A DNA stretch of 64,000 bases from Citrifermentans bremense (GTDB lineage Bacteria > Desulfobacterota > Desulfuromonadia > Geobacterales > Geobacteraceae): contig NZ_AP023213.1 of the NCBI RefSeq assembly GCF_014218275.1, positions 4,088,954 through 4,152,953 of the forward strand, given 5' to 3'. Positions within the stretch are counted from its first letter, which is position 1; the number at the start of each line of letters is the position of its first letter. The notes beneath the pieces were generated by a model. It was not told where the DNA came from and searched no databases. It was given only the letters and a program-made list of their open reading frames with translations. Below are positions 14,774 to 40,038 of the stretch, piece by piece. Made by a program: the position numbers and the translations under genes.

Positions 14774-14807
14774 GTATTTTCCCTTTATGCCAACATCATA
14801 AGGCTGA

Positions 14808-18676: not shown

Positions 18677-18739
18677 AGTCTGCCCGAAGAGAAATATAGT
18701 CCGATCCTTATTAAGGCTTTAACTTTTCTTTATCCTAAT

Positions 18740-18802: not shown

Positions 18803-18883
18803 GTTGCCTTTTGACGTTTTTCGTTCGGATTCTCATCTGGGAGAAAAGTTATCGTGTTATAAATGGCTGACCCCATGTTCACT

Positions 18884-23253: not shown

Positions 23254-23545
23254 AATGCCGACACCTTGTATCCTTGCGTACAGGATCGAGCCCCTCTCGG
23301 TGCCTCGATTGGACTGCTCGGGATGGCAGCCGTCGCAGGCGAGGATGGATCCGGGAAGGTATTAGTAAGTCGGTCGCTACGTCTCCGCAAGAGACCGATA
23401 GGGACACATACCAGCATAGGTATCCGACCAAAGGATGCCACTTTCGCGATCGCTTTTTCGAATAGCGATGGTCGCCAATGCTGTTGGCCAAGTGTGTGGA
23501 ATAGCAAAAAGAACGCACGTGGACTGTTTGGAGAGACATATAATT

Positions 23546-23606
23546 GCCCAACGGGCTGGGAGATCACCGGCGGGGCTTCAGTGCCGGTGCATCTTCCTGG
23601 TTGGAT
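23546..23606 (-). other. attC: attC-like site 2
   Basis: Outer cores GCCCAAC and GTTGGAT; inner arms GATCACCGG and CCGGTGCATC pair with extrahelical bases, as in classical attC sites. It closes the cassette of the 24444 and 24925 genes. Confidence 0.75.
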
Positions 23607-23754
23607 GCTCTCTCCGTCTGTTGCGCCTTACACTCCATTAGCAACATCTGGGACCCCAACGCATCAACCCCTTCTCCTGTTGCTAGGGATCCCCGGGGTT
23701 ATTCATTGGTTGGAAATTGCCTGTTTCCCTTCAATAAGCTGGATTCGCGAACAA

Positions 23755-24444
23755 CTACAGGTACTTCTTTCGTAGTCGAGGTTCACTGCGTCTTTTTTTG
23801 CGTTCTATGACTACCAGCAGATGTTGCTCAATAGGGATTGGCCTTTTGGGTCGTGGTATTGGAACAGCCGACGGCGCGAATTCTTCTTCAATTCCAAGGT
23901 CGAGAGATAATTGTTCGGGATACGTTTCTAAAGACTCAAGAGCAACCGCAATCTCTTGCTGAGCTTCAGGAGGCAGCTCAGCTCCCGTCGGATCGAGAAC
24001 CTGTAAAGCTTTAAGGGTGGCCTCTTCAGGTGCAATTTCACGATCTCGAACCTTAACAAACAGCCGCTCTAAGCGTGAAACCGCGCCGGCATCAACTCGT
24101 GTATGTTTCTTTGGCAGGGGGTTGCCTATTTCATTCTTGGCAGCCTCACTAACAATGGCTTCAGCAACAGCACACCCTTGACGCTTTATTATTTCTACAC
24201 CTTGGATAAAGCTGCCATATTGAGCGATCCCAACATATAGTGCAGACGCGGCCACAGCAACTTTACCAAGACCCTTGACGGAGCCTTCCTGAACAGCTAG
24301 GTAGAGGCTGTAATCATTAAACGGCAGAAACTCCTCCACCGCGGCGTCCATTTCGTCGAAGATTCTTCTTGCGTAGGCGATCAACTGATCTTCAGTGGGT
24401 GCTGGGGTATCGAAATTGAAAGACGCTCGTACGATATCTATCAT
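23755..24444 (-). CDS. Hypothetical partner of the YTGPGGG-repeat protein
   Basis: 229 residues with AAGGGACGG upstream. Not recognised. The N-terminal third is acidic and helical (TEDQLIAYARRIFDEMDAAVEEFL). A glycine/alanine-rich hydrophobic stretch GLGKVAVAASALYVGIAQYGSFIQGVEI (split about 56-83) could be a membrane-inserting helix. The C-terminal third is Pro/Glu-rich and ends in a very basic tail (ERKKRRSEPRLRKKYL). It is the second gene of a two-gene cassette: the upstream repeat protein ends 46 bp before it and no attC lies between them, so the two products probably act together. A pore-like or membrane-active role is only a guess from the hydrophobic stretch. Confidence 0.6.
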   Translation of the reverse strand: MIDIVRASFNFDTPAPTEDQLIAYARRIFDEMDAAVEEFLPFNDYSLYLAVQEGSVKGLGKVAVAASALYVGIAQYGSFIQGVEIIKRQGCAVAEAIVSEAAKNEIGNPLPKKHTRVDAGAVSRLERLFVKVRDREIAPEEATLKALQVLDPTGAELPPEAQQEIAVALESLETYPEQLSLDLGIEEEFAPSAVPIPRPKRPIPIEQHLLVVIERKKRRSEPRLRKKYL

Positions 24445-24490
24445 TTAACCGTCCCTTTCGATTTGAAGGACTGCATTCTTTTGAATGTTT

Positions 24491-24925
24491 TCAGCCTCGC
24501 CAGCCTATGCTTCGGAGAGCTTCTGCAATTAGGTTGGCTTGTTGGTTCATCCCCATTTGCCGAAGCTCCCCCACAAGAAGTGGCCACGGCGGCATAACGC
24601 CCATATAAGGTTTAGAGTCAGGGCCGGTGTACATGCCCCCACCCGGCCCACTATACAGGCCGCCACCCGGTCCAGAGTAAAGACCTCCACCAGGGCCAGT
24701 GTATAGCCCACCGCCCGGACCCGTGTAAGCCGCCCCACCTGGACCGGTGTAGAGACCTCCGCCAGGGCCTGTGTAAGCGCCTCCACCAGGCCCTGAATAC
24801 ATACCGCCACCCGGGCCGGTGTAGGCACCTCCACCTGGGCCGGTGTACATACCGCCACCAGGCCCAGTATAAGCGCCTCCGCCAGGACCTGTGTACATGT
24901 TGCGGACCCACATTTTGAGACTCAT
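24491..24925 (-). CDS. YTGPGGG octapeptide-repeat protein
   Basis: 144 residues from ATG at 24925, chosen because TAGGAGG lies just upstream; the frame is open further up only because it runs into the attC. After MSLKMWVRNM come eleven tandem copies of Y-T/S-G-P-G-G-G/A-x, where x alternates A, M or L, and one degenerate copy (YTGPDSKP). The C-terminal 40 residues (MPPWPLLVGELRQMGMNQQ and on) form an amphipathic helix. No signal peptide. The repeats occupy about 88 residues (DNA about 24630-24900). The function is unknown; regular Tyr and Gly-Pro-Gly turns suggest a solenoid or fibre-like fold. It shares a cassette with the 229-residue gene downstream. Confidence 0.75.
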   Translation of the reverse strand: MSLKMWVRNMYTGPGGGAYTGPGGGMYTGPGGGAYTGPGGGMYSGPGGGAYTGPGGGLYTGPGGAAYTGPGGGLYTGPGGGLYSGPGGGLYSGPGGGMYTGPDSKPYMGVMPPWPLLVGELRQMGMNQQANLIAEALRSIGWRG

Positions 24926-24943
24926 AATGCCTCCTATTTCTCT

Positions 24944-25000
24944 GTCCAATGCTGAGAGCACAGCGGCGGCGTTGCCGTCCGCTGGTGCGCTTTGTTGGCC
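24944..25000 (-). other. attC: attC-like site 3
   Basis: Cores GTCCAAT and GTTGGCC; inner arms GAGCACAGCGG and CCGCTGGTGCGCTT pair with bulged bases. Closely related to site 5. Confidence 0.7.
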
Positions 25001-25051
25001 CTACATTTCTAATCCGGTAGCGCTGGTAACGCATGATCGCATGGACGTCCC

Positions 25052-26269
25052 CTAACAGGCCTCCAGAGGTAGCTCTTCCGAAACCACCCTCTTCCCAATT
25101 TTTCCTCCCTTGAGGTAAGGTAGGCCATGAACAGTAAAAGTAACGCTTTGTGCATCGACAGATATTTCGGTCATCAGAATTTTCCTGTCGCCAATAGTAA
25201 GTTCATCTCCTACCACTAGTCCTGTCTGGCGAAAAAAAAGGGCCTCCGCAGTCGTCTTGTGAAATCTTATCCCTTCGCCGACCCGGCGACTAAGCACCTT
25301 TAAAAATTCACCTATTTCACCGGTTGGAGTTCCACTAAAGGGGGCCAGTTCGATATAATGAATCTCTCCAAGTGGAGGACTATTCCAGCACCACCAGCCA
25401 GTTCTGTCTTTCTTTTCCACGGATTTAGCCCAAGTGGTGTTATTTGCAATATCCTGCCAATCTGGCTCACCATTCAGAGAAGAGATGTTGGCGGTTGTTG
25501 CAGCTAAAGCTATCGCATTCTTGTCTCTCTTGTGCAAAATGTGTTCAGGTCTGTCTCGTTTTATAAACGTGAGCTTAGTGCTAATAATTTTCGTTCCAAG
25601 CGATCCGTCATCTCTGTAGCGGGGACCGTTCACCTCGATGGAGTTATCTTCATCTCTTCCTAGAACAGACCGGTATGGCAACTTTGCATTTTCGATGCGA
25701 AGCTTGCTTCGGCCGAAATTCTTGTCCACGAATGATAGGTCATCACCGAAGCTTAAGCCGAAGTACTCCTTCAGGATCCTTTCTTCAAGTTCCCGCTCTC
25801 TCGCCTTCTCTTCATCTTGACGCCTTGTCTTTAATAACCCAGACTCATCGTGTGGCAAGATGCTGAATGCACTCCTTTTTCCTGGGGTTCCGTCCTTTCT
25901 GCACTGCACACCACGAATGTGGAAATTTGAATAACATTCATCTCGTCTGTAGAAAGTTGTCTCGTGGACTAGAATTTTTCCCCCCTCAATTTCAGCTATT
26001 TCTCCAATTCTAACTCCGTATTCTATTTCGAGAAACGCGGCTGACAGAATTAGAATTCTCCTTTCAAGCACCTCATTCCAATTTCCCGTTCTCGTCAAAA
26101 GATCCTTACCTGCAGTCACTATCTCTTGATACAAGGGATGTTCGTCCTCGCGACCCTCTAGCTCTTGGATTATCTCGCTTAGGTCAACAGTCATTGCTTC
26201 AAACAGTTCAATTTCATTAGTTACCGCATCTATGGCTAGCTCGATAAAGTCCAAAGTTCCTAGTTCCAT
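25052..26269 (-). CDS. Hypothetical 405-residue cassette protein
   Basis: The start is set at ATG 26269 (AGGGAG eight bases upstream). The frame is open for 26 more codons, but these lie in attC site 4. The N-terminus is acidic and helical (MELGTLDFIELAIDAVTNEI). The middle has a charged coiled-coil-like part (RRQDEEKARERELEERIL). The C-terminal half has strands and a Trp-rich piece (RTGWWCWNSPPLGEIHYIELAPFSG is cut here as two motifs, TGWWCW and GEIHYIEL). No known motif, signal peptide or membrane segment is recognised. It makes up a whole cassette with attC site 3. Confidence 0.6.
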   Translation of the reverse strand: MELGTLDFIELAIDAVTNEIELFEAMTVDLSEIIQELEGREDEHPLYQEIVTAGKDLLTRTGNWNEVLERRILILSAAFLEIEYGVRIGEIAEIEGGKILVHETTFYRRDECYSNFHIRGVQCRKDGTPGKRSAFSILPHDESGLLKTRRQDEEKARERELEERILKEYFGLSFGDDLSFVDKNFGRSKLRIENAKLPYRSVLGRDEDNSIEVNGPRYRDDGSLGTKIISTKLTFIKRDRPEHILHKRDKNAIALAATTANISSLNGEPDWQDIANNTTWAKSVEKKDRTGWWCWNSPPLGEIHYIELAPFSGTPTGEIGEFLKVLSRRVGEGIRFHKTTAEALFFRQTGLVVGDELTIGDRKILMTEISVDAQSVTFTVHGLPYLKGGKIGKRVVSEELPLEAC

Positions 26270-26293
26270 CACGAAAACTCCCTGTTTGTCCTG

Positions 26294-26361
26294 TGCCAAC
26301 GGGGCTGCACTTGACCTGCGCGGCGAGGTATGCCGCGTCAGCGTCAAAGTGCATGTTGAGC
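26294..26361 (-). other. attC: attC-like site 4
   Basis: Right core GTTGAGC fits GTTRRRY; the left core TGCCAAC is imperfect. Inner arms TGCACTTGAC and GTCAAAGTGCA pair. It lies 28 bp after the TIR gene. Confidence 0.6.
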
Positions 26362-26388
26362 ATCTTATTGATACTCTGATCTAAATGG

Positions 26389-26802
26389 TCATCTTGTTGT
26401 GAACTTCCGCTTTATGAAGTCATCGACTTCTCCTGCATCAATACAGTGAAACCTTCGAAGTCGCTCTGGCAACTGTGGAATGTCGCAACGGAACAATATC
26501 GGAATGGTTCTCTTTTCTAAAACCCAGGCAGCACCCCACTCTGTAGTCACCCATTCACTGTTTAAGCTGCTTGGTGATACAATGACCCATAATTCCTGCG
26601 ACCCCACCAGCGATTTACGGATGTTTTCCGCGAAGTCATCACCGGCGCTTAAAGCTTTTGGAGCCATAAAAACTGTTGCACCAGCTCCTTCGAGTTTTTC
26701 ATGTACTGTTTGAGCCTGCAGATGATCCCGCTCGCTGTAGCTCAAAAATACATCATATTGGAATTTTGCAGCTTGTTTGACTCGCTTGAATTCTTCTTCC
26801 AT
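26389..26802 (-). CDS. TIR-domain protein
   Basis: 137 residues from the first ATG; nearly the whole protein is a TIR domain. It has FQYDVFLSYSERD (beta A and box 1, about 15-27), FMAPKAL (box 2 region), and SEWVTTEWG with the catalytic-type Glu88. Bacterial TIR domains of defence systems cleave NAD+. The reading frame is open for exactly 38 codons above this ATG, back to the stop of the upstream gene, with no ATG or GTG, so the N-terminus is uncertain. It shares a cassette with the 118-residue gene upstream (no attC between them). A bare TIR effector with a separate small partner suggests a two-component sensor and effector. Confidence 0.8.
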   Translation of the reverse strand: MEEEFKRVKQAAKFQYDVFLSYSERDHLQAQTVHEKLEGAGATVFMAPKALSAGDDFAENIRKSLVGSQELWVIVSPSSLNSEWVTTEWGAAWVLEKRTIPILFRCDIPQLPERLRRFHCIDAGEVDDFIKRKFTTR

Positions 26803-26916
26803 CTCGATTTTATGCCATGTTTCATATTCTCTTTTTTTCCTCTCCGAAAGTCTTAGCGTACTTTTGACATAGGATGGTTGTTCACGAATTACGTCCTTCT
26901 CCCAATCAAATAGTTC

Positions 26917-27273
26917 TCATCCAGCTGGATTGATGTGTACGAACGATTTTCTATCCTCTGGATGCTTATAATAGTAGCATTCTGATTTTACTTGTATTAT
27001 GTCCTCTCGATCTATCGCTTCTTTCAAAGTTTTGTCTTGTTGTTTGCCATACTCACTGTAGTATTCAAATTTAACCTCAGAATGGTTAAACATATCAAAC
27101 ATGAGCGCTAGGACATCCTCTTCTGAAGCAAGATTTCCTGATTCTATAGAGATAGACCTAGTCATGACTATGGAGGCAGGGGCTGGGAGTTCTATTTCAT
27201 GAACACTGCCATCAGGCATGGTGCGTGAAAATTTAATACTGGTTGCTTTGACCTCTTCGTTGTCAGTAGTCAT
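26917..27273 (-). CDS. Hypothetical protein paired with TIR gene
   Basis: 118 residues starting MTTDNEEVKATSIKF at 27273 (AGAGGG upstream); codons further up belong to attC site 5. The predicted structure is mixed: an N-terminal beta hairpin with MPDGSVHEIELPAPASI, then acidic helices and KSECYYYKHPED with several Tyr. No domain is recognised. The stop codon TGA is immediately followed, in frame, by the 38 open codons that lead into the TIR gene. As the first gene of a TIR cassette it is a candidate sensor or inhibitor of the TIR protein, by position only. Confidence 0.6.
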   Translation of the reverse strand: MTTDNEEVKATSIKFSRTMPDGSVHEIELPAPASIVMTRSISIESGNLASEEDVLALMFDMFNHSEVKFEYYSEYGKQQDKTLKEAIDREDIIQVKSECYYYKHPEDRKSFVHINPAG

Positions 27274-27293
27274 AAACCCTCTTTTCGTTTTGC

Positions 27294-27364
27294 GCTCAAC
27301 GGCTGAGAGCGCAGCGGCAGGCGCGGATTTATCGCGACGGACCGTCTGTCGCGCTTTGTTATGC
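27294..27364 (-). other. attC: attC-like site 5
   Basis: Cores GCTCAAC and GTTATGC; inner arms GAGCGCAGCGGCAG and CTGTCGCGCTTT pair imperfectly. It follows the HEPN-like gene. Confidence 0.7.
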
Positions 27365-27396
27365 GTCATTCTTAGAAGTATTATCAAGAGAGAGAC

Positions 27397-28314
27397 TCAG
27401 TTGATAGATTTGCTCGCGACATAAAACCTAGTCAAGGAGCCAATGAATGAGTTTTTTTGCTCAAGCTCTTGTCTGTGATCAATAAAATCAGTGAATATCT
27501 GAAACATCTCCGGGTACAAACCCTCTCCGTCCCGCATCGCTATACCAAGGCCGACGATATCGTCAGACTTTGTTGCATCCTTAAACCTGGACACACATTT
27601 GCTAATGGTGTTTTCCCATGTTAGGACATCGTCCTTTAGAACCTCTCTTGCTTTTGTATGTATTTTGCCAATGCTGGTGATGTAATCCCGGATCATCGGC
27701 TTAATGTCAAATTTTTCTCCAAGGGATTCAAGTTCTTGGATGACAGATCTCTTAAACTTCTTATCCTCTGCAAGTTCTTTTACCTTCAGATACGGTGTAA
27801 CACCAAAAACGATCTGCCATTTATCCTGTGCTTCCTCTTCTCGTTTAGAATTGTATGTTACTGATTGGACCGGAAACCCTCGGTGCTGGACGTAATTTCT
27901 TAGCGCCTCAAGAACTCGGTAGCTGAGGCTGATATCATATTCATGTTTTACTTGACATTGTACTTCCTTGACTTTCTGAGATCTCTCACCGTAGATGTTG
28001 TTTAAGTGATGACAATAATGGTCCAGATACATTCTACAGGCGCTCAACAAGTTAATAATTCTTCTATTAATTACGTTGACCTCATTCTGCATCCTCGGGT
28101 AATTCAAGTCATGAAATATCATGTGCTTAGTGGCAGTTGAAAGAAGTGTCATCTCATATTCAAGAAAATCTTCCATTACAACGTCAACTTTTTGCTCCAG
28201 ATAATAAGCTTCAAATAAATATTTTTTTGCATTTTTTATGGCGCAATACTCTTCCTCAGTGATATTGACAAAGGGCATTGGCCCCAACACCAATTTTGTA
28301 ATTCCGTATTCCAT
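27397..28314 (-). CDS. Hypothetical protein with HEPN-like RN-x3-H motif
   Basis: 305 residues, almost all alpha-helical. The motif LRNYVQHRG (R139, N140, H144) matches the R-polar-x3-H signature of HEPN RNases, in the usual helical context (YRVLEALRNYVQH). The N-terminal 25 residues are beta-like (VLGPMPFVNITEEEY). The start is 13 bp inside the cassette, right after attC site 6. HEPN proteins in islands are often toxins or abortive-infection RNases; here no separate antitoxin gene is in the cassette. The HEPN assignment rests on one motif and should be treated as tentative. Confidence 0.5.
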   Translation of the reverse strand: MEYGITKLVLGPMPFVNITEEEYCAIKNAKKYLFEAYYLEQKVDVVMEDFLEYEMTLLSTATKHMIFHDLNYPRMQNEVNVINRRIINLLSACRMYLDHYCHHLNNIYGERSQKVKEVQCQVKHEYDISLSYRVLEALRNYVQHRGFPVQSVTYNSKREEEAQDKWQIVFGVTPYLKVKELAEDKKFKRSVIQELESLGEKFDIKPMIRDYITSIGKIHTKAREVLKDDVLTWENTISKCVSRFKDATKSDDIVGLGIAMRDGEGLYPEMFQIFTDFIDHRQELEQKNSFIGSLTRFYVASKSIN

Positions 28315-28326
28315 TGATTATTTCTC

Positions 28327-28398
28327 GCATAACGGCTCGGGCCATGACCCGCCTGGCCAGTTTATTAGGGCGGTCGGTGCCCATGGGCCTTGTTGGTA
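28327..28398 (-). other. attC: attC-like site 6
   Basis: Core GCATAAC on one side and GTTGGTA on the other; inner arms GGGCCATGACCCGCC and GGCGGTC...CATGGGCC pair with bulges. Confidence 0.65.
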
Positions 28399-28420
28399 AT
28401 TGCTTTTCCCCGCTATTATC

Positions 28421-29164
28421 TCATGTCGGGGGCAGAAGACCCCATATCAATTCCCGGCTCTTGTCCGTCGATTCATTCGGAGAGATACTGCCGACTAGCC
28501 GGGTAAAATAGTCGGGGATGCCGGTCTCGATGGCCATACGCCGGCCGCTGACCGGATGCGTGAACGTGAGCGATCGGGCATGGAGCGCCAAGTGTGCGCG
28601 GGCATACCGGTCCGTGCCGTATTTGCTGTCTCCCACCACGGCATTGCCCCCTTCGGAAAGGTGCACCCGGATCTGGTGCTTGCGTCCGGTGAGCAAATGG
28701 ATTGCCAGCAGGCTGAGGCCACGGTTCTCCTTCATGACGACGTATTCCGTGTGGGAAAGCTTACCCCGCCCCTGGTCGGTGGTCGAATAGACCCGCATGG
28801 CGCTGTTCTCCGCCAGATAGCTGCTTATGGTGCCGCTCTTCAGTGCCAGTGTGCCGTGAACCACCGTCACGTAGTGCTTATCCGTCTCCTGCCAATGCTC
28901 CTGCAGATGGATCTTGTTCGCTTCGCTCTTGGCCAGGATCAGGATGCCGGAGGTCTCCCGGTCCAGGCGATGGACGATATAGACCCGGTTTCGGGAACGT
29001 GGATCCCCCTTGCGGACGTAATCGTTGAGGATGGAATGGACCGTGCGCGTCTTGTCCCGGCCGGTGCCGATTGTCAGGAGTCCGCACGGTTTCTCGATGA
29101 CGATGATGTCCCGGTCTTCGTACAGGACCGTAAGCCCTTGGGGGTGATGTTTAGCTGCCGACAT
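28421..29164 (-). CDS. RluA/RluD-type pseudouridine synthase in a cassette
   Basis: 247 residues from ATG 29164 (GGAGAAAG upstream). The catalytic motif HRLDRETSG is at 65-73 with D68 as nucleophile. It is preceded by IVIEKPCGLLT and followed by LLTGRKHQIRVHL, all diagnostic for the RluA family. There is no S4 domain. It isomerises uridine to pseudouridine in an RNA, in the cytoplasm; the target (rRNA, tRNA or foreign RNA) cannot be read. It sits between attC sites 6 and 7, so it moves as a cassette. It is GC-richer than its neighbours. Confidence 0.88.
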   Translation of the reverse strand: MSAAKHHPQGLTVLYEDRDIIVIEKPCGLLTIGTGRDKTRTVHSILNDYVRKGDPRSRNRVYIVHRLDRETSGILILAKSEANKIHLQEHWQETDKHYVTVVHGTLALKSGTISSYLAENSAMRVYSTTDQGRGKLSHTEYVVMKENRGLSLLAIHLLTGRKHQIRVHLSEGGNAVVGDSKYGTDRYARAHLALHARSLTFTHPVSGRRMAIETGIPDYFTRLVGSISPNESTDKSRELIWGLLPPT

Positions 29165-29368
29165 GGCGAACTTTCTCCGGGGCCAGCGGCGGATGTGGGC
29201 CATTCAGTATTCAAATCAAAAGCTCATGTCACGCAACTTCTCGAAAGACATCCGAAATCGCTTGAACAAGCTTCGGCGGTTCTGCTTTCTTAATTTATGC
29301 TGCGATTATCTCTTGATAGTCGTGCGCCAGTGTCTTTTGGTCAGATATTTTCAGTTGTATTTTTTATC

Positions 29369-29430
29369 GTCCAACGTTGGCGGGTGATCACCGGGCGACA
29401 GTTTGCTCCGGTGCATCTGCCTTGTTGAAA
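29369..29430 (-). other. attC: attC-like site 7
   Basis: Cores GTCCAAC and GTTGAAA; inner arms GGCGGGTGATCACCGG and CCGGTGCATCTGCC pair with extrahelical bases. Nearly the same inner arms as site 2. Confidence 0.75.
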
Positions 29431-29436
29431 ACTTCT

Positions 29437-30183
29437 CTAAATCTCTCGTCGATCCCGGCCATTAATTTCTTTGCTCACACTTTCGAACAACTTCTTGATC
29501 TCTGTAGATGCTGTGAATTTCAATGTATGAGTCATAGGCATAAGGTTTGGATCTGACTTTTCATGTGTTACATCTTTGCAATCTAACTCTTTAAGCAACT
29601 CCGCGATGAGACTTATTTTGTGTCCTGCGTTGGCTGTGCGAAATGCAAAGTTGTTGTCATCAAAATGATGCCCGTACCGAGCGTATGCCCCTGCCAAATA
29701 TGAAAGCTTTGCTGTTTTGTCTTGCCCCTTGAAAACATCAATTGAAATGAATGCTTCAACCATGCGAACATATGGCCCGTTTGGGTATTTATGAGGCTTG
29801 ACCATTGTGTGTGAGTTGTCGAATGAATACTGATACATGCTATTAATGTGCTGACACAGTTCTGAAGAGTGAAATGAAATGTGACCACCGTCGGATATTT
29901 CTTTCCTGATTTCGGTATGGATAGACTCCTCCGCAACGAGAAGTCTCAGATACTTTTCAAAGACCTTTGAAGCTTGAACTTCTGATGAGTAAAAGCTCTC
30001 AACACCATCAGCACCCTTCTCGATAATCCCTCTTCCTCTGTATTCATCTAGGCAACCCAAGATGAAAAATATTGGTTTAACTCCGGGCAGGGTGGGTTCT
30101 TGTAGAAGGTTATTTTCCTGGCCCCAGACAGAAGTAGCGAAGAGTAGCAAAGGGACCAAAGCCGCGATGATAAATCTTCTCAT
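29437..30183 (-). CDS. Secreted hypothetical protein, first cassette
   Basis: 248 residues with GAAAGGAC upstream of the ATG. A signal peptide is clear (RRFIIAALVPLLLFATSVWG, cleavage near 22). The mature protein is polar and mixed, with HHFDDNNFAF and many His and Lys. One possible metal-binding patch is YARYGHHFDDNN. No known domain. It is the cassette furthest from the array's left end. It is the only cassette product with an export signal, so it would act in the periplasm or outside. Confidence 0.6.
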   Translation of the reverse strand: MRRFIIAALVPLLLFATSVWGQENNLLQEPTLPGVKPIFFILGCLDEYRGRGIIEKGADGVESFYSSEVQASKVFEKYLRLLVAEESIHTEIRKEISDGGHISFHSSELCQHINSMYQYSFDNSHTMVKPHKYPNGPYVRMVEAFISIDVFKGQDKTAKLSYLAGAYARYGHHFDDNNFAFRTANAGHKISLIAELLKELDCKDVTHEKSDPNLMPMTHTLKFTASTEIKKLFESVSKEINGRDRREI

Positions 30184-30207
30184 ATTTGTCCTTTCAACTA
30201 CTTATTG

Positions 30208-30233
30208 AGCGGTTCACGCGCGCGTGAACCGCT
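30208..30233. repeat. 26-bp perfect palindrome
   Basis: AGCGGTTCACGCG followed by its exact complement, no loop, just upstream of the first cassette gene. No T-run follows. It could be an operator, a recombination site or a cruciform. Confidence 0.6.
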
Positions 30234-30521
30234 GATCGTCCTAAATCGGTTATTCTACCGGATCCTTATAAGTTCGACAAAATCCAGTTCTGTAAAGATG
30301 ACCCAAATGAAGCCATTTGGATAGATTATCGTATTGAAAAGCTTATTTATCGGGATAAATGTTCCAACTGGCTTGTTGGGCGGTTTTCTGTACAACATCC
30401 CGTGACATCATCAGCAAGCCGAATTTATAACGGTTTTAGGCCGTGGTCAATGAAAAATCGCTTATCATTATCCCGATCACTTTACGCCTCTAAAAATTGG
30501 AAACCACTTCGGGTGATGTCT

Positions 30522-30727
30522 TTACAGGACTAGATCGTATCGTCCGAATCGCGTTGATGTGCTGGGTAGGATACGGTGTGATTTCAGCATTCTAGGCGGG
30601 GCCGAGTGGGTAGGCCTTGTTGAAGTTGGTGAATGATACGGCTGATCGAGAAGGTCTCGAGGAAGATGACGCAGTTGGCGACAAGATGGTTGAGCGAGGA
30701 TAGGGTGTCAGTGAGCGCCAAAAATCC
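30522..30727 (-). pseudogene. Decayed Tn3-family transposase C-terminus
   Basis: The frame reads LTDTLSSLNHLVANCVIF, resembling the 'LNLVVNAIVLWNT' helix of Tn3 transposases. After a stop and shifts come QHIN in one frame and RFGRYDLVL plus stop in another, which together match the terminal 'HINRFGRYxL' of that family. No inverted repeats were found. Tentative. Confidence 0.4.
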
Positions 30728-30900
30728 ACACTATATTTTTGTTTGGATGATTTTGTCACCCATTGAGTTTCCACACCGAAATTCGAAGAGCCTAAAAAAG
30801 AAGGCCCACTGACGTAGACCTTCTTTTTTATTCGCTGCTTTCCCTGAGTAAGTGAACCAGGCCAGATATTGATACAAATGCTTACGGAACCTAAGAGGCC

Positions 30901-32778
30901 CTAAGAGGCAACTCCACTTTTCCGGATTTCGGCAATAAACATGGCTCCATATGCGCCGAGCTTGGATTTGCCCACGCCACTGATTTTAAGCAGCCCTTCC
31001 GAAGTTGTTGGCTTTTTTGCAGCCATCTCGACAAGAGTGACGTCTCCAAATACCACGTAAGGCGGCACTCCCGCTTCTCTTGCTATTTGGGAGCGCAGCT
31101 CGCGAAGTGATTGGAAAAGAACCTGCTCGTCAGGACTGAGCAAATCGACACTGACTTTTGCTTTCTTGATTTTGTTGGCTGCTGCCAAACGCTCCTCTTT
31201 TGTTTGCGTTATCTTTAACCGTGGCCGCGCGAGGTGAAGGCGTTCCTGTCCTAAAAGAAGAGGCTTTGATGCTGCCGTGAGCCGAAGTATCGAATATTGG
31301 CTGATATCCTGGTAGAGGTAGCCGAGGTGTATCAGCTGGTGAAGGATACTTCCCCACTCTTCTGGACTTTTGCTACGTCCTATGCCATAGGTGGAAAGTT
31401 TGTCATGGCCAAGAGCCTTGATGCGCTGAGACTGGGAACCACGAAGGACATCGATGATATGGCCTGCACCAAAACGCTGTCCAGCGCGGTAGACGCAGGA
31501 AAGAGCCTTCTGGGCATCTTCTGTTGCATCGAATCGCTGGGGCGAATCAAGGCAGACATCACAGTTGCCACAGTCCTCCTCGAGATGCTCGCCAAAATAA
31601 AGAAGAAGGATCCTGCGCCGGCAATGCAGGGCTTCTGCGAATCCAATCATGGCATTGAGTTTATGCGTCTCTATACGAACCTGTTCAGGGTTATCGCTAT
31701 TTTCAATGAGGCTGCGAGCAACAGCGACATCCCCGTACCCAAAGAGTACGAGGGAGTCCGCGGGCAAACCGTCCCTGCCTGCCCGTCCTGATTCTTGGTA
31801 GAAGCTTTCTATATTTTTGGGGAGGTCGTAGTGCACAACGAATCGAACATTTGGCTTGTCTATACCCATGCCATAGGCGACGGTACCAACCACAATCCTG
31901 ACTTCTTCGTTTATGAAGGCATCGTGCACCCTGCTGCGTTCTTTGTCTGAGAGTCCCGCATGGTAGGCCGCAGCAGCAATCCCCGCACGGGCAAGACGCT
32001 CAGCCACTTCTTCTACTCGCTTACGGCTGAGCGCATAGACTATACCGGCCTCATGCTTGGCGCGGGCTGAAATAAACGACAACAACTGGGAAAGCGGCTG
32101 CCTCTTTTCTAATACGGTATAGCGAATGTTTGGACGGTCGAAGCCTGCGACATAATGGCGCGCCTCGCCCAGACCGAGGCGGCTGATTATGTCGGACCTT
32201 GTATGAGCGTCAGCCGTAGCGGTCAGCGCAATCAGGGGGACATCAGGAAATAGTTCGCGAAGTTGGCCGAGTTGTTCGTACTCTGGTCGAAAGTCATGCC
32301 CCCACTGGCTGATGCAGTGTGCCTCGTCGATGGCAAATAAAGAGATTTCCAGATCGTTAAGACGTTGCAAGAAAGCCTCAGTCATTAAGCGCTCTGGGGC
32401 CAAGTACAGGAGATCCAGGTCGCCGCCGTGCAACGCTGCTAGAACCCGAGAGGCCTCCTTTTGGTCGAGACTGGAGTTATAAAAGGCTGCCCGCACCCCG
32501 TTGGAACGCAGAGCGTCAACCTGATCCTTCATTAGCGAGATGAGCGGGGAAACGACAATACCGACGCCAGGTCGACAGAGGGCAGGAATCTGATAGCACA
32601 ACGACTTCCCCCCCCCGGTAGGCATGATGACGAAGGCATCCTCCCCTCGAATCAACCCTTCAACGATCTCCTGCTGGTGATCTCTGAAGGTATTGAATCC
32701 AAAAATCTCCCTTAAAATTTTGTTCGGGGTCGCGCTGATGTTGTAATCCTCTTTATAAGTGAACTTGCCGAAAGCCAC
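30901..32778 (-). CDS. recQ: Full-length RecQ helicase carried by the island
   Basis: 625 residues with all parts of RecQ: Walker A MPTGGGKS (53-60), DEAH in [20 protein letters not shown], motif [14 protein letters not shown], Zn-binding [18 protein letters not shown]-type segment with CGNCDVC, winged helix, and a C-terminal HRDC domain ([24 protein letters not shown], cut at about 590-613). The start is GTG at 32778 without a good ribosome binding site, so the first 15 residues are uncertain. It is clearly divergent from the disrupted host RecQ. DNA coding for TVAYGMGID here differs at several bases from the host target coding for TVAFGMGID, so the island should not insert into its own copy. 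It likely restores RecQ function to the host. Confidence 0.93.
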
Positions 32779-32890
32779 GCCACGACCAGCAGCAGAGACC
32801 CCCTCTTTTTCAACTCTAGCAGGAGGTAGTAATCTGACACGTATACTCCAACTACCGCCAGTTTTCTCTCTCGAACACGAAAAATGGTAC

Positions 32891-34375
32891 CTAGTTTAGA
32901 TTAGCCCCTAGGTGTTTCATCAGTATCCGGAATACCCGGCCTGAATCACCATCCCTAAGCGCATCAAGCAGGCCATCCTCCTCCGCCAAAAGGTACTGCT
33001 TCACCTTTAGGCGCTCCAAGGTCCCCACTGACTCCTCCGAAAGATATTGTTTGTAGGCAGCCTGGGTGATTCCTTTGTGGCGCTCAAAATATTCCAGCCT
33101 CTCACCGGCTGTCATTTTGATGAGCTTGAGCTTCGTGAGATCAAGGTAGTGCTTGAGTGTTGTTGTTTTGAACCTGTGGCCGAGTTGCTGCGATGCATAG
33201 GAGATAATGGAATTGTCATCAATTGTGGCGGCAATCACCTTGCAGTTATGCCCTTGTTTTTCAAGCTCCCGAAACTTCCAGAGGTATAGATTAGAGACCA
33301 CTTCCATGGCAAACAGCCTCCTCAGATCGTGCGGTGTGATCTTGAGCCCAGCCTTAGTGATCGCCTTTGTTACCGCCTCTTGCATAGTTTTTGTTTTGAC
33401 CCGCTCTCCCAGAGTATCGCCTGTCGTGGCAAGGAATACGGCGTCCGGCTCCTTATAGCCACGACCGTAAAGTTTTTTTGCTCGCTTAACGAGTTCAACC
33501 CTCTCAAAATCGATATAGTCCCGGGTGTGCTTGAGAAGCATCGGATCGACATCCAGCGGCCTTCTGCGTACCCGTCCACCCTTGGTGCGGAGACCTTGCC
33601 CTTTTGGCTTAAATGGCATCGGGTAAGGTTTCTTCTCGATTATGTATTGCTCAATCTCCTCAAGCTGTGGGATCATGCTAACTTGGAGGGTTGAGGCTTC
33701 AACCCCACGAAGGCCAAGATATCTATTCCAGTCAAGATAGAGTCTGTTGCGCCTGGCTGTCACTTTACCAAAAATCTCATCCATAGCATCGTGGAGTTTT
33801 TCTACATCCTCGTCACTCGCCGCCTCTTTTGGCAGCGTGCCGTCGGAACGGAGGCGCCCCACCCACAGATCCTCGTTGTTCTTTCCTTTTTCAACTGTTA
33901 TGCGGTATTTGCCGCCATGACCAATTGTGCCCTCGGGTACCTTTTCGTTAGCCTTACACCAGAGATAGAAGCGAAATACTGTCGATAACCTTCGATTGAT
34001 TGTGTCGCTCTTGAGGGGTGTGACGCTATTGCGTTGCTGAACCGATTTCTGTTCCGCCGACACGCGGGCGCCGTTGGCCATCCTGTCCCGCCAACGCATC
34101 AAGAAATTGTCGTTCACCTCCTGCCAGTTTTGACGCTCACGGGATAAAAACTCCCAAAACATTCTGAGGTCACTTGCCAACTGCTTCATCGTGCCGGTGT
34201 CGTCGGGTCTGGACTTTCGTTTTCTCTGGACGATCAGCCAGTCAATAACAGGATAGATAGGTGCACCATATTCATCGACTAGGATACCTACGCCCGGTCT
34301 AGACAGGTCGTCAAACCAACAATTTTTATCGGTGAAGAAGAGCTTGGGAACTTCGAAAGATTTAATTTTGCCCAT
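32891..34375 (-). CDS. Tyrosine recombinase 3
   Basis: 494 residues from ATG at 34375 (GGAGGT six bases upstream); a longer frame lacks a start signal. A core-binding domain (about 60-160) precedes the catalytic domain. Catalytic residues are visible: Arg in [13 protein letters not shown] (box I), HDLRR (box II), GH in QQLGHRF and the Tyr nucleophile in LKHYLDL. So it is a complete enzyme. It lies 111 bp upstream of the island recQ and 330 bp after the small coiled-coil gene, on the same strand. It is unlike IntI in length and in lacking the IntI-specific helix. Confidence 0.88.
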
Positions 34376-34704
34376 TACTGACCTCCGAACGATCACCCTC
34401 AGCAGATGAATAGCGCCGTAGGCTTGTCTGTAACAGCGTTGAAGCCCACCGAAACGACTTGGTCTGCCTCCTCTGGTCAAAGGAAAGTAGAGGTGGGACT
34501 TGTCCACTAACTACTCAAAACGGGCTAGGCTGACTCTGTTGGACTGAAATGGCAGACTCCTACATTGCATTGACATCGACTCAGAGTCAGAACTCTCCTC
34601 TCCGTGCGGCAGCAGTGTCAGGATGTCCCTGATGCGCTGCTTCATCAGTGGGATCTCCATTTATCTTCGATTTGTCGACCAGCATACCTACGTATTTGCC
34701 CCCC

Positions 34705-35283
34705 CTACTTGACGGGGCGCAATCCCTGCACTGTCCTCACTCTATCAAGTTGTTTTTCCAGATCAGCGACTCTGCGAATTAGATTCTTGTTCATATTGCC
34801 CAAAATCTGGACATTTTCAGATATATTCATGATTTCGCTACGCAATTGTGCGTTTTCGTTAACCAACCTTTGGATTAAAACCTCTTGCGCCCTTTTTTCA
34901 ACTTTCAACTTCGTTAACTCCTGCTTGGCTGAAGGTTTGTTCTTGATGGATGCGAGAAGCTCTCTAGCACGTCCTTTGAGGGAGCTTCGCTCTGGCCTAT
35001 CCATCGCCACCGCAGAAACAGGATAAACACCGTGGATGACATGTAGCCCCCCGTCCAGTCGAACCTCTAATTCGAGGTCCTCGTCGAGCCACTTTTGAAA
35101 GTCAGTTAAGCTTTTTGGACAGTGTTTATGGCTGGAATCGCTAACCCCGCTCAGTTCATAGCATTCTGGAACGCCATCAGCACACCATTTCTCAAGGATC
35201 GCAATTTTCTCTTTTATTCGCTGAGTTGCAGCCTCGTGCCGAGCATCCCTACTCAGGCCGGCTTGATATTGGGAGTGGCTCAT
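34705..35283 (-). CDS. Small coiled-coil protein of the recombinase operon
   Basis: 192 residues from ATG 35283, which overlaps the stop of the upstream recombinase as ATGA; a GTG nine bases earlier is an alternative. The N-terminal half has a conserved-looking CADGVPECYELSGVSD-type segment. The C-terminal half (about 120-185) is a long coiled coil rich in Leu, Glu and Lys (RLVNENAQLRSEIMNI, then LIRRVADLEKQLDRV). By position and size it matches TnpC of Tn554 and the small third protein of trio-type elements, which helps orient or regulate the recombinases. That equivalence is an inference. Confidence 0.7.
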   Translation of the reverse strand: MSHSQYQAGLSRDARHEAATQRIKEKIAILEKWCADGVPECYELSGVSDSSHKHCPKSLTDFQKWLDEDLELEVRLDGGLHVIHGVYPVSAVAMDRPERSSLKGRARELLASIKNKPSAKQELTKLKVEKRAQEVLIQRLVNENAQLRSEIMNISENVQILGNMNKNLIRRVADLEKQLDRVRTVQGLRPVK

Positions 35284-37601
35284 TCTCCCCACTCCGACCC
35301 ATCTTCGAAATACGCCTTTAAGCCCTCTTCATACACTCTGGCATACTCCTGCGCATAGTCTCTCATGATATCGGAAATGCCTCCCCTCTCCAGCCTCGAT
35401 CTATAAGTAGTTGCACCTGTTTCCCACAGTGTGCGGAAGTTTTCATCGACGTATAAGTGCTCACACCCAAGGCAGCGCTTGGGCGTTGCTTTTGCCACAT
35501 CAGGCTGATCAGCCTTTACGCCGTCAGCAACGCAGTTACCTCGGAATTCCCCTGTCTGCTTGTGTTTGTATGCATAACAGAACCCCCATTTAAACGGTAT
35601 CATGTCAATATTCAGCTTCATCATCACCCGCTCTGCAATCTTATGGGCAACCCATGGAGGCTCTTCTCCGCTGAGAATCTCGGAATGCTTGATAACCTCA
35701 TGAAGCATCTCGTCAAGATGCTTCTTCATCGCCTCACCTCCGGGGCCAAGAGCTTTGCGCTTGCCCCTAAGAACCCCTGACATTAGGTCCACAACGATAT
35801 TTTTGCTATGAGCTTTAAGCATGTCGGATTCATAGATTTCTTCGATATAGCGCTTGGTCATTTCCATATTAAAATGACGTAATTGGTGGGATAAGGCCTC
35901 CATCTTACCGTGCTCACCATAGTTATAGCGGTACATGTATAAAAGTGCGAAGAAGCGCCTAAACTGGTGCGGCCTGAATATCCACTTTGACCCATCCTCG
36001 AGAAGAGGTACATTGACGAAGTCGGCGAACAGATTGATGGCCTCAACTATATCGAACCTAATTAAAGATCCGCCCCTTAAGTGCTCAACCTCGAAAAGAT
36101 TCCTGGACCCGCTTTTTTTGCGCGTTGACTCCGTCAACGCCTCAAGTACCTCAATGGCCCTCACGACAACCGGCGGAATGGGCGTTCTATCCCATTTTTG
36201 GAAAGTCTTCTCAATGTAGCTCCACATCCATGGCTCACCACGCTCATCTAGGTAGAGAGCACGAGGCACCTGGTCATTGTCTGTCTGCTCACCTCCCTTT
36301 ATCGTCAAAATCTCACCCCTCCGACGCGCTGTGAATGCGGCTATGACGATTGCGGAAGCCGCCATGAGATAGATGCTGGTTGCATGATTGATTGATAGTC
36401 CCCGCACCTCCACAGCATTTTTGCGACCAGCGGCAATTAGCGGCCACGGTGCTCCTAAATCTTCGGCACTAAAGTTTTTCGGAGCATATGCTTCTAAAAT
36501 GTCCGTCAGGGCCTTTAACCGTTGACTCCTGCACACAGCGTTTGAAACGCGTTGAGTCGCCAGCTTGCGCAAGTCAAGTAGGTCGTCTGAATAGTTGATA
36601 ACCCAACGGCAAGCCCGGTCCACGATATGGAAAGCCTGCAGGTCGGGCATAGTTTCCGTTATACCCTCACTATCCTCAATGTCGGCCACAGTAAGCGCTT
36701 CCCGGGCAACTTTTTTTGACGACATATTTTCCCCAGAGACGTAGTCGCTTGCCGGGTTGACACTGCATCTTTGCGGCAGGAGGTAACCCATATCGTGCAA
36801 GGCCTGCCATGCCTGCACATACTTCTGCAAAGAGTTTAACTTCATGGGTTCGCGCTCAGGCTCAACAACCAGCTCAAGCAGGTGTTTTTGATTATTCCGA
36901 ACAAGCTCTGAGCCGTTAAGCGCTGCAACGGCAGTCCAGAATTTAAACGTGAAGTTCTTCCCAAATTTAGTAGCCAATTCAGGGTCAACACCAATCTGGC
37001 GATGCACCTCGCTAGCATCGATTCTTTCGTACATCTTTTTGCTATCAAAGCTAGTTCTTATGAATCTGACAGGTATCTTCCGCCCTGAGCGCTGGAGCGA
37101 TTCGAGGTAATTATCGAAGCGGCTTTCTGCGTCGAGTAACCTGACAAGACCCCATGGGGCTGCTTGCATAAAGAGTCTAAAATCAAGAGTTGTAATATAG
37201 TCAACACTGTAAATGAAGTTGAGACGCATCCATGCAAAAATGCTTAGGAGTCGCCTCGTCATTGCAACCTGGTTTTCGGCGCTGGTGATGCTCCTGATAT
37301 GACCTTCCCGAAGGGCGATACAGAAGCGCTGGGCAACCTCAAGAAGTGCTTCATTATCAGGATCCGTCAGCAGGGAGACCTTCATCGTGGCAGGGTCGTA
37401 CAGCGGATACTCCCAGTTCAGACGTTTAGTGCCACCAAAACCCTCGTCGCTTATTTTCCACTCATTGGCATAGAGGGCAGCCCTATCGTTCAGCCACAAC
37501 GGAGTGTCGAGCTCATCAAGCCATGGGCGTGAGACGCACACGTCTGGACGAGCAAGAGGTGAGGAAGGAATGGCCGCGTCATTTGCTTCGCTTTCGCACA
37601 T
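35280..37601 (-). CDS. Tyrosine recombinase 2 (large)
   Basis: 773 residues, twice the usual integrase size, GGAGGAGCA upstream of ATG. The catalytic domain is in the second half: Arg in FTARRRGEILTI, HQFR in FRPHQFRRFF, and LSHQLRHFNMEMTKRYI with the final His and Tyr. After the Tyr comes a C-terminal extension with a Cys cluster (FCYAYK, GNCVAD, RCLGCEHL) that looks like a zinc site. The N-terminal 350 residues have no known domain. It follows recombinase 1 by 8 bp and overlaps the small coiled-coil gene, so these three form one operon. Confidence 0.88.
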   Translation of the reverse strand: MCESEANDAAIPSSPLARPDVCVSRPWLDELDTPLWLNDRAALYANEWKISDEGFGGTKRLNWEYPLYDPATMKVSLLTDPDNEALLEVAQRFCIALREGHIRSITSAENQVAMTRRLLSIFAWMRLNFIYSVDYITTLDFRLFMQAAPWGLVRLLDAESRFDNYLESLQRSGRKIPVRFIRTSFDSKKMYERIDASEVHRQIGVDPELATKFGKNFTFKFWTAVAALNGSELVRNNQKHLLELVVEPEREPMKLNSLQKYVQAWQALHDMGYLLPQRCSVNPASDYVSGENMSSKKVAREALTVADIEDSEGITETMPDLQAFHIVDRACRWVINYSDDLLDLRKLATQRVSNAVCRSQRLKALTDILEAYAPKNFSAEDLGAPWPLIAAGRKNAVEVRGLSINHATSIYLMAASAIVIAAFTARRRGEILTIKGGEQTDNDQVPRALYLDERGEPWMWSYIEKTFQKWDRTPIPPVVVRAIEVLEALTESTRKKSGSRNLFEVEHLRGGSLIRFDIVEAINLFADFVNVPLLEDGSKWIFRPHQFRRFFALLYMYRYNYGEHGKMEALSHQLRHFNMEMTKRYIEEIYESDMLKAHSKNIVVDLMSGVLRGKRKALGPGGEAMKKHLDEMLHEVIKHSEILSGEEPPWVAHKIAERVMMKLNIDMIPFKWGFCYAYKHKQTGEFRGNCVADGVKADQPDVAKATPKRCLGCEHLYVDENFRTLWETGATTYRSRLERGGISDIMRDYAQEYARVYEEGLKAYFEDGSEWGE

Positions 37602-37609
37602 TGCTCCTC

Positions 37610-39895
37610 CTATATCAATGGGACGAAGTCAGCGGTACCTAGTGCTTTTGCCATCTCTTCCGCCTCCCTCAAAATTTTCCTGCTGACGTTATGTGCAGAT
37701 TTCGCTTTATCAATGCCCCCTTCAACTATGGCAAGCCACCGCATCCAAACCTCTTGCCACCGCTCCTCGTTCATCCGTAACTCAATTTCGTTGTCCCTTA
37801 TCCACCTGCGCATCATGAAAGCATCCACCAAATTTTCCTTAAGTGCCGGAAATACTCGTGCAAGAGGGCACTTGGGGCAGTCGTCCACAGGGTCGCAGTC
37901 GGATCTCTTCACACTAAACTCTTTGCCTTCATCGTCTTTTCTTTGGTGATCACATATTGTCCCGAGACCTGTCCTTTTGGCGTTGGCTAGGCGGTCCTCG
38001 TATTCTGCCGTAGTGTACCCGAGTCTTCTTGCTGCATCCTCGATATCCTGAATCACTATGGCTTCGTAATGCTTCATGAACCCCCTGATACGCTCCTCCA
38101 TCTCCATCCGAGATAGAGTACGCACTACATAGCCAGTCGATGTGGCTATCGTCTTGTGGGCCAGTTGGGCCCTTGAGGTCTCGATGTCTTCTCCATTAAC
38201 AAAGGCCAACACCCTGACCGTTGGTCGAATACTGGTCGGCAAGAAACTGTATGCGCCAATGGAGGGATGGTTTTCCTTAAATTTTTTCAGAGCCTTATCA
38301 TACACAGCAACCACACCGGCGGTTACGGTCACGCTGCCCATAGGTACACCTATTATTTTTTCACGTAAGAAAAGCCTCTGTTCTACCCTCGCTTCTTCAG
38401 TTCTAACCTCATAAAGAGGGTGGCCGTTCTTGGCGAGACGACGCAGGCGCTGCGTCATCTCTTTAACCCTTTGTATGACCACAATAGAATTGGCTCTATC
38501 TTTAGAGTCGATTCGCACTCTGCTGTGAACAGGCTTGTTGTCTGCACGAGACTTAATGCCCCAGATTTCTTTGATGGTTGGCACGTCGGTGTCTCTCACG
38601 CAATCAACGGTCAGGCCGTCAACGACCTCAACATTGAGGCCCGTGTCTATGAGCAGAATGATCTGTGCCATCAATAAGGTGTACATTGACGTGCCCAGAC
38701 GCTCCTTAGGCCAACCTTCAAAGTCGTGGAAGCCATTGCCTCTGAATACATTTCTCCATATACGCAAGATAGGTTCTTCACAAATGTCTTTATCTGATCT
38801 TCTTAGTTTTGGACACAGGCCATAACGCCCATCCAGCAGAGTGAGAAGCCTTGATTTCGCAACCCTCACTGGCAGCGGTTGCCTTGTCCATCGGCCGTTG
38901 ATACGTTTGGAGGTCCCAAGAAACATCTGTCTAAACGGGTTCTGCACTGTTTTTGTGCGGATGCCGGAGGGGTCATGCTGCACAACCTCAAACCACTCCT
39001 TCATGGGCCCCAGCATGTCCACTTCGTAAGAAAGATCTGATTCAGCGAGAAGTTGCTGCCCCTCCTGATAGGCCTCCCAACCCTTAATAAAGTCCGCCTC
39101 TGCACACCTTCTTACCTCCGCCAATCGTTCAGTGTTGAGCTTTCTGATCTCCTCGATGATCTGCCCGTCAGTCATTCCGGCAATACTGAGCCCCGAACTT
39201 GCGAGAGTTCTGATGCAGGCTTTCCGCTCCTCTTCAATGATGTCGTGTTTGTTAACACTTTGCCGCAAGTAGCCGCCAACGAGTCGGTCGATCTCCCTTT
39301 CGCTGAGTTTATGGCTCGGCAAATCACCTAAAATCTTACGCCGCCTTTTGTGCAGGTGCGCGTTCCTGATGCCTTTAAGGACTGCCCTTGGGAAGACACC
39401 GCGTGCCTCGCAAATCCTCAGGAAACCGCTGATGCAATGTATGAACTCACTTCTGCTACACTTGGTCCCCCGTGAAAAAGGGTTGTCCTTGTTGCGAATT
39501 GCCGTGTTGCGGAAACTGTCGATTACCATCTGCCAACTTGCCTGGTCAGGTATGTCCCCAGAGGCAAGGCTCTGCTTAACCGACTCTGCGAATGGCTTGT
39601 CATTGCCACTAAGAAAATGGAGGAGCCAAAGTATGAACTTTTTTGTCTTGATCCCATTCGGATGCAGCAACTGCTGCGTGGGCCTTGACATCTTGCTCAG
39701 CCTCAGTGTGATGGCGTAAGCAAGACTCTCTACAGTTCTCCTGTGAAGCAACGGATGGTTAAGGTAGGAGAGGTCGTACTGAACACCATGTTTACCAATA
39801 AACGGTCGGAGGGGGTCTGAGGTATCGATTCCACCGTGGAGCGACTTCAGGGGGGGGTATTGTTTATCTTTACGCGAGGTACCACTGTCTTTCAT
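37610..39895 (-). CDS. Tyrosine recombinase 1 (large, degenerate active site)
   Basis: 761 residues from ATG 39895 (GGGGG upstream). It is related in layout to recombinase 2: an N-terminal unknown half, a recombinase-like domain and a Cys-rich tail (TICDHQRK, SDCDPVDDCPKCPL). The catalytic pattern is incomplete: box I reads TGLNVEVVDGL with Asn where Arg is expected, and box II reads PTSIRPTV with Thr/Ser in place of the His of HxxR. The last part, AHKTIATSTGYV, keeps His and Tyr. It may be a structural partner that positions DNA rather than a full enzyme. It is the first gene of the mobility operon, nearest the right island end. Confidence 0.8.
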   Translation of the reverse strand: MKDSGTSRKDKQYPPLKSLHGGIDTSDPLRPFIGKHGVQYDLSYLNHPLLHRRTVESLAYAITLRLSKMSRPTQQLLHPNGIKTKKFILWLLHFLSGNDKPFAESVKQSLASGDIPDQASWQMVIDSFRNTAIRNKDNPFSRGTKCSRSEFIHCISGFLRICEARGVFPRAVLKGIRNAHLHKRRRKILGDLPSHKLSEREIDRLVGGYLRQSVNKHDIIEEERKACIRTLASSGLSIAGMTDGQIIEEIRKLNTERLAEVRRCAEADFIKGWEAYQEGQQLLAESDLSYEVDMLGPMKEWFEVVQHDPSGIRTKTVQNPFRQMFLGTSKRINGRWTRQPLPVRVAKSRLLTLLDGRYGLCPKLRRSDKDICEEPILRIWRNVFRGNGFHDFEGWPKERLGTSMYTLLMAQIILLIDTGLNVEVVDGLTVDCVRDTDVPTIKEIWGIKSRADNKPVHSRVRIDSKDRANSIVVIQRVKEMTQRLRRLAKNGHPLYEVRTEEARVEQRLFLREKIIGVPMGSVTVTAGVVAVYDKALKKFKENHPSIGAYSFLPTSIRPTVRVLAFVNGEDIETSRAQLAHKTIATSTGYVVRTLSRMEMEERIRGFMKHYEAIVIQDIEDAARRLGYTTAEYEDRLANAKRTGLGTICDHQRKDDEGKEFSVKRSDCDPVDDCPKCPLARVFPALKENLVDAFMMRRWIRDNEIELRMNEERWQEVWMRWLAIVEGGIDKAKSAHNVSRKILREAEEMAKALGTADFVPLI

Positions 39896-40038
39896 AGATA
39901 ACCCCCATGACGCCTTTGTGCGTGGAGAACAGAATCCGCGCAACCATTAAGCGTGCGACTGCATGGGAGTCAGCTATCCATCTAATAGCCTAATATCAAG
40001 AATTCAGCAGTCAGTCAATCACGCACGTATCGCACGTG

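Follow-up and report, generated by a model that had tools for sequence, protein, structure and literature searches.

The locus described here raises the question of why an island that interrupts the chromosomal recQ gene of a bacterium should itself carry a complete recQ. The analysis was based on a stretch of 64,000 nucleotides from Citrifermentans bremense (assembly GCF_014218275.1, contig NZ_AP023213.1, positions 4,088,954 to 4,152,953), referred to as the window, in whose numbering coordinates are given unless another contig or locus is named. The answer reached below, which is regarded as very probable, is that a GInt-like island inactivates recQ, that its own divergent recQ takes over, and that the matching of the copy to the target is a mobility strategy.

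The chromosomal recQ of C. bremense consists of two parts separated by an island of 27,770 bp. The N-terminal part (40055..40920, minus strand, ending in ...TVAFG) and the C-terminal part (11350..12284, minus strand, starting with MGIDKSNV and carrying the RQC and HRDC domains) were located by tblastn and are 67% and 63% identical, respectively, to the island RecQ, which gave three strong matches in the window: itself, 40920-40024 and 12282-11377. The insertion is precise: when both flanks were aligned with two sister species, position 12284 abutted 40055 in each, with the island absent, and the island was therefore delimited as 12285..40054. Its GC content is approximately 0.43-0.53 across much of its length, against approximately 0.57-0.65 in most of the flanks, the GC-rich Gabija genes being an exception inside the island. 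The junction in the broken gene, TVAFG/MGIDK (slash, point of interruption), lies in what we take to be helicase motif V. The N part is 96-97% identical to recQ of the two sister species, with which host recQ also groups in a RecQ tree (61 rows, 57 of them from other loci, including L116, a duplicate of the Pararhizobium arenae copy described below), and in each of the 18 other genomes of the genus that were searched, the recQ frame is 601 aa or longer. By tblastn, the 4.46-Mb genome yielded a single full-length RecQ, that of the island; the remaining six matches are distant helicases with at most 30% identity. Split recQ frames in three other genomes (G180, G229, G255) were considered as island insertions and rejected, their breaks being contig ends. 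In G255 two contigs (end of L076, start of L077) are broken within recQ just past the codons targeted in the window, which could reflect ordinary fragmentation or an island-polymorphic population.

The spare recQ (30901..32778, minus strand) starts 112 bp past the third recombinase gene. A preliminary description of this DNA had proposed that a full-length, divergent RecQ lies beside the recombinases of an element that breaks recQ, and this was borne out by an open reading frame of 625 aa with 66% amino acid identity to the RecQ encoded by the split host gene. All five domains expected from Pfam are present (DEAD, Helicase_C, RecQ Zn-binding, RQC and HRDC). The protein passes the TIGR01389 recQ model (809 bits, cut-off 640.2), scores 820 bits on PRK11057, below the cut-off of 1015, and fails the NCBIfam model NF041063 (DpdF) with 203 bits against a cut-off of 550. 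Comparison with host recQ (pN 0.24, pS 0.79, the latter saturated) indicates that the copy is under purifying selection, and its domains and conserved residues are intact. In the tree the copy falls outside the genus, with weak placement and on a long branch (0.57, median 0.05), so that it is not the product of a recent duplication. Among 395 sampled genomes of the phylum, the best RecQ match to it has 70% identity; elsewhere, RecQ matches were recorded on plasmids (243), phages (26) and viral contigs (8).

Inward from the N-part border, the island encodes proteins of 777, 773, 195 and 538 aa, followed by recQ. Recombinase-like protein 1 (777 aa; 37610..39943, minus strand) adjoins the island end and has homologues at the same operon position elsewhere; it is likened to recombinases solely by this position and by conserved H/Y and R residues. 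Within the conserved motif DTGxN (here DTGLN) the first catalytic Arg has given way to N, searches of Pfam, NCBIfam and PHROG gave zero matches, and its AlphaFold model (pLDDT 34) is uninformative on the fold. Recombinase 2 (773 aa; 35280..37601, minus strand) was recognised from alignments and PHROG by its RI, HxxR, H and Y residues; R426/R427, H545, R548, H576 and Y585 are invariant in alignments A1 and A4, and a weak PHROG integrase match of 30 bits was obtained. The small protein (195 aa; 34705..35292, minus strand) occupies a GinD-like position, has homologues in G513 (39%) and G471 (27%), two of the related elements described below, and is likely a coiled coil, as predicted from its sequence. 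Recombinase 3 (538 aa; 32891..34507, minus strand) contains the Phage_integrase domain (Pfam PF00589) and has a G513 homologue with 56% identity. The order in which the canonical integrase comes last, after the small gene, is common to the window, Azospirillum L011 and G1013. In the G513 and G471 elements the small gene and the gene of recombinase 3 are separated by one for a RecD2-like helicase (L099:490-2784; L100:9922-12306, minus strand); the window operon has none at that position, and G558 has an 855-aa open reading frame there. On a Bradyrhizobium plasmid (L012:912-9813) two recombinase operons are arranged in tandem, their proteins being 53-67% identical pairwise.

As judged from the published description, this operon resembles that of the GInts, in that three tyrosine-recombinase-like proteins and a small protein are encoded at the end of the island (Bardaji et al. 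2017, PMC5385486). In the available parts of that paper, GInts are described as elements with three recombinase-like proteins, one of which is without the first Arg, and a small protein at one end; they carry variable cargo, insert site-specifically, and are excised as circles in a process requiring all four gin genes, and their borders carry imperfect direct repeats of 10-17 nt (PMC5385486). Unlike the reported order ginA-ginB-ginC-ginD (PMC5385486), the window has 1-2-small-3, its last gene being that of the canonical integrase. The reported GInts are located, according to the same parts, between genes or at gene 5′ or 3′ ends, and a ‘duplicated’ ribonucleotide reductase gene with GInts at its end is mentioned (PMC5385486). 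We infer that the window island may still be mobile.

The termini were compared with those of the pfkA island of G513. On the recombinase side (40000..40054, minus strand) TTTAGCTTAAC and GTGCGTGATTGA are common to both, and 44 of 96 aligned positions are identical, as compared with a mean of 30.6 and a maximum of 42 in 20 shuffles. At the far terminus (12285..12330, plus strand) TTTATCG and TTTTTTA.GCGTGCA are common to both; the count here, 40/98 over 90 nt, was made without shuffles of its own, and the similarity is limited to the first 42 nt or so. The window borders, read by eye only, showed no clear direct repeat. An inverted-repeat search at the element borders gave a result above shuffles for G471 only (16/16); the repeats at the borders of the window, G1275, G1134 and G558 did not exceed shuffles. 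Ten consecutive G (plus strand) are present near the far end of the island (12327-12336). The cargo includes, all on the minus strand, Gabija-like GajB (18884-20842, PADLOC 702 bits) and GajA (20839-23253, 818 bits), a PD-Lambda-4 A-like protein (14900..18676, PADLOC 110 bits), a TIR-domain protein (26389..26802, Pfam TIR_2) and, beside the defence genes, an RluA-type pseudouridine synthase (28421..29203, Pfam PF00849).

Related elements were collected by searches with recombinase 2. Single-protein searches returned its own genome only (1/58 and 1/297 genomes), so that profile searches were needed; single-protein searches with recombinases 1, 2 and 3 found no relative among viral contigs, and recombinase 1 had no plasmid match. 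Altogether 24 elements were opened, the window included: G513, G471, G614 and G558 from a profile search of 277 genomes (7 matches including the own genome; the weak profile matches G581 and G633 were left out), the four loci L014-L017 (G444-G447), G1013 from a search of 385 genomes (2 matches including G447), G243 from 257 genomes (2 matches including the own genome), G1134, G1292, G1100, G1275, G1260 and G1107 from 284 genomes (7 matches including G447), and seven plasmid elements (L010-L013 and L183-L185). Plasmid matches were opened in 4 of 17 cases from one search and 2 of 9 from another; a further search listed 63, partly overlapping the 17. Pairs of copy and target were identified by a paralogue scan within each region, followed by hand checks. 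A target gene was assigned in 11 of the 24 elements, comprising eight split genes with a full copy, two split genes for which no copy was found, and one element at a gene 3′ end; the remaining 13 are G614, G1013, G1292, G243, G446, G445, L010-L014, L184 and L185. The full divergent copy thus corresponds to the element's own split gene in eight of the 24: recQ twice, and an EF-P-like gene, thyA, yfbR, yjbQ, recJ and pfkA once each. Its place is inside or next to the recombinase operon, or what is left of it, in the window, G471, G558, G1275 and G1100, and away from the recombinase genes in P. arenae, G1134 and G513 (3/8).

The closest relative is the G513 element (recombinases 42, 49 and 56% identical, small protein 39%), which occupies positions 22443-57991 of its contig. 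There pfkA is split at GGGDCP/GLNAVIRG, and a full PFK copy, 51% identical, is located at the far end; an insertion after an intact exbD, without a copy, had been a candidate for this element and was overturned by the pair of split pfkA and full PFK. Operons and termini of the window and G513 elements are alike, yet one pairs recQ with recQ and the other pfkA with pfkA, which is, in our view, the strongest evidence for a link between copy and target. In P. arenae (G447) recQ is split at DEAHC/VSQWGHD, a motif other than that in the window, with the N part on contig 12 and the C part next to the recombinases on contig 41; the full recQ is located 13 kb from the N part, and the same 14 nt were seen by eye, inverted, near both borders. 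On the N-part side (L121-L122, G447 C12:624-642 kb; order of contigs 12 and 41 assumed) a TIR-like protein and several unknown proteins are encoded beside the full recQ. In G471 an EF-P-like gene (yeiP) is split at DGVFM/DLENYEQ by an island of about 16.2 kb, the full EF-P-like copy follows directly after recombinase 3, which is in two frames, and the C part of the target contains one N base and a frame change.

In G1275 thyA is split at DVFLGVP/FNIASYA with about 5.5 kb remaining between the parts; a full ThyA is present, and of the recombinases just a remnant was recognised. An intact copy beside seemingly decayed recombinases is what would be expected if the host now needs the copy. In G1100 the N part of yfbR ends in TGD and is followed by a full YfbR copy and then by the recombinases, the C part not being found owing to the contig end. 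In G1134 yjbQ is split at GADDM/PAHIK and a full copy is present within an island of about 19.8 kb. In G558 recJ is split at HGDYDV/DGITA, its parts lying about 108 kb apart on one contig, and a 595-aa RecJ (RecJ_OB, DHH, DHHA1) is encoded within the recombinase operon; a RecJ_OB family search gave two matches in G558 and one in each of the four other genomes searched. A 184-aa recJ frame in a sister species (G014) was considered as an island insertion and rejected: matches occur in two frames (L180, G014:C1:2817421-2819113), and the gene is probably frameshifted.

Among the other assigned elements, that of G1107 splits umuC a few codons from its 5′ end, no copy being found in the 29-kb contig, and that of the Pseudomonas aeruginosa plasmid pPUV-7 splits a PAPS-reductase-like gene for which no spare copy was found there; the second part of this gene has no Pfam match and was read as a C-terminus from sequence. 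The pPUV-7 element (L183:9743-26959) is GInt-like, and its cargo includes a TbtM efflux gene. The G1260 element lies at the 3′ end of gor, the gor end at the junction presumably being the natural C-terminus. In G1292 (L152/L153, C1:342563-348551) an intact ssb directly follows the recombinase operon and may represent either the target or a spare copy; a convincing second ssb fragment was absent from the 60 kb examined. Specificity was checked for seven of the copies (all but pfkA) against 26 region files (1.03 Mb): the only matches were the own broken target, the other recQ case, the efp gene adjacent to the G471 target, and one ordinary chromosomal yjbQ. The expectation of the preliminary description that relatives of the mobility operon would always carry and enter recQ did not hold, because yeiP (EF-P-like), thyA, yfbR, yjbQ, recJ and pfkA are also targets with the matching gene aboard, and two more genes are split without a copy having been found. 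Its more general proposal, a self-compensating insertion with a whole paralogue, gained support from the island and seven further elements. Related operons at other loci without recQ, which that description had named as a refutation, do exist, but their matched copies speak for the wider proposal.

The proposed course of events is as follows: a GInt-like element would integrate site-specifically in the recQ coding sequence at TVAFG/MGIDK, its recombinases attaching the island at a site whose codons are highly conserved; the insertion would inactivate host recQ, and the complete divergent recQ beside the recombinase operon would take over the lost function, so that the host would then depend on the island unless precise excision occurred. 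We infer that the copy is indeed expressed and that it stands in for host RecQ. As recQ is usually non-essential, rescue is not strictly required here. An explanation of the island RecQ as ordinary cargo, namely a defence or repair helicase whose likeness to the target arose by chance, would accord with the Gabija, PD-Lambda-4-like and TIR proteins in the island and with the PADLOC DpdF models that match the protein; it is considered extremely unlikely, since the protein is a RecQ equivalog, its DpdF score of 203 stays below the cut-off of 550, and chance does not provide for seven other elements with a copy of their own target, six of them from different families. In the window operon RecQ comes after recombinase 3, and the place that a RecD2-like helicase occupies in the G513 and G471 operons lacks such a gene, which would fit a role of RecQ as the mobility helicase of the operon, with host rescue as a side effect. 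This is judged very unlikely, given that the copies elsewhere include non-helicases (PFK, ThyA, EF-P-like, YfbR, YjbQ) and that G471 has the RecD2-like helicase in addition to its target copy. The pairing of other housekeeping genes with their copies in related elements favours the copy as part of a mobility strategy over random cargo.

The preliminary description had also suggested that the copy would escape insertion. The stretch of the spare copy equivalent to the target site (31855..31887, minus strand, from a codon alignment; junction equivalent next to 31869, the first base of MGIDK) differs from host recQ at 8 of 33 nt, including a change of F to Y in TVAFG, in agreement with the earlier claim that the DNA differs there. 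All seven copies tested differ at the target, by 8-14 of 33 nt in the six for which both sides are known. The divergence at the site is, however, no higher than in the remainder of the gene: the percentiles of the junction windows in the seven pairs are 0.93, 0.20, 0.69, 0.86, 0.94, 1.00 and 0.12, and the idea of a special recoding of the copy at the target found no support. Where at least 95% of 56 orthologues share a residue, the two RecQ copies have unusual residues at 5/30 positions within 12 aa of the junction and at 24/348 elsewhere (p=0.068; p=0.064 and 0.114 with other widths, pooled Fisher), an excess that is suggestive only. The altered near-invariant residues near the site are A158C, D167N and P170K, and A298G and F302Y. 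That the changed site is an adaptation against self-insertion (a recoded rescue) rather than plain divergence would be in keeping with the differences in all seven copies and the near-invariant residues changed close by; with site windows that are not unusually diverged (0.12-1.00) and p values of 0.06-0.11, it is held to be possible and somewhat doubtful. It is plausible that the copy is immune to insertion, and the changed site may be protective.

The strategy itself is already known from two published cases, an island in recA of V. cholerae and an insert in C. difficile. In the parts of the report by Rapa et al. 2014 that were available, RME is a 32,787-bp island within recA of Vibrio cholerae S24, whose own recA copy is 23% divergent and functional in recA-deficient E. 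coli; RME moved into recA on a plasmid, and its own copy is stated to spare the cell (PMC4405046). The window island shares with RME the insertion inside a conserved repair gene, a complete divergent copy and a precise empty site, the copy of RME being at one end of the island (PMC4405046). It thus shows the RME-type combination of a split target and a complete divergent copy. It differs in that the target of RME is recA and that RME has an integrase and a XerS-like recombinase with 9-bp inverted repeats and is not described, in those parts, as a three-recombinase GInt (PMC4405046). RME is presented there as a single case, and one precedent is cited, a 4.2-kb insert in the thymidylate synthase gene of C. 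difficile that contains another version of this gene (Knetsch et al. 2011, cited in PMC4405046); like the window island, this insert interrupts a housekeeping gene of which it provides a version. The words ‘paralog’ and ‘replacement’ are absent from the GInt paper (PMC5385486), and ‘paralog’ and ‘target gene’ do not occur in the available part of PMC10214605. Among open-licence full texts, in which absence is weak evidence, no paper was found that ties the strategy to GInts or to several genes. The Cleave-and-Rescue and HomeR gene drives, as described in the accessible parts of the reports, follow the same logic, an important gene being disrupted and a rescue supplied; they are engineered, nuclease-based and used in animals, whereas the window holds a natural site-specific recombinase element (PMC7951863; PMC7968924). 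The parallel is one of analogy only.

On balance, we lean towards the wider view that islands with three recombinases form a natural home-and-rescue system that is widespread. In each lineage, a recombinase specificity for a conserved coding site of a housekeeping gene would be paired with a divergent rescue gene that the element keeps, often within or close to the recombinase operon, and both would switch together. The isolated reports on recA and thymidylate synthase would then grow into a rule that can be tested across a large family of islands, namely to seek inside each element a second, divergent version of the gene it splits. Such a rule would account for the use of very conserved coding sites as landing pads and for the wholesale replacement of housekeeping genes by divergent versions, which can mislead phylogenies and calls of gene loss, as well as for host dependence on the island, and the islands would be a natural counterpart of engineered disrupt-and-rescue drives. 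If this is true, they would have universal landing sites at their disposal, and the host would be spared and at the same time made dependent on the island.
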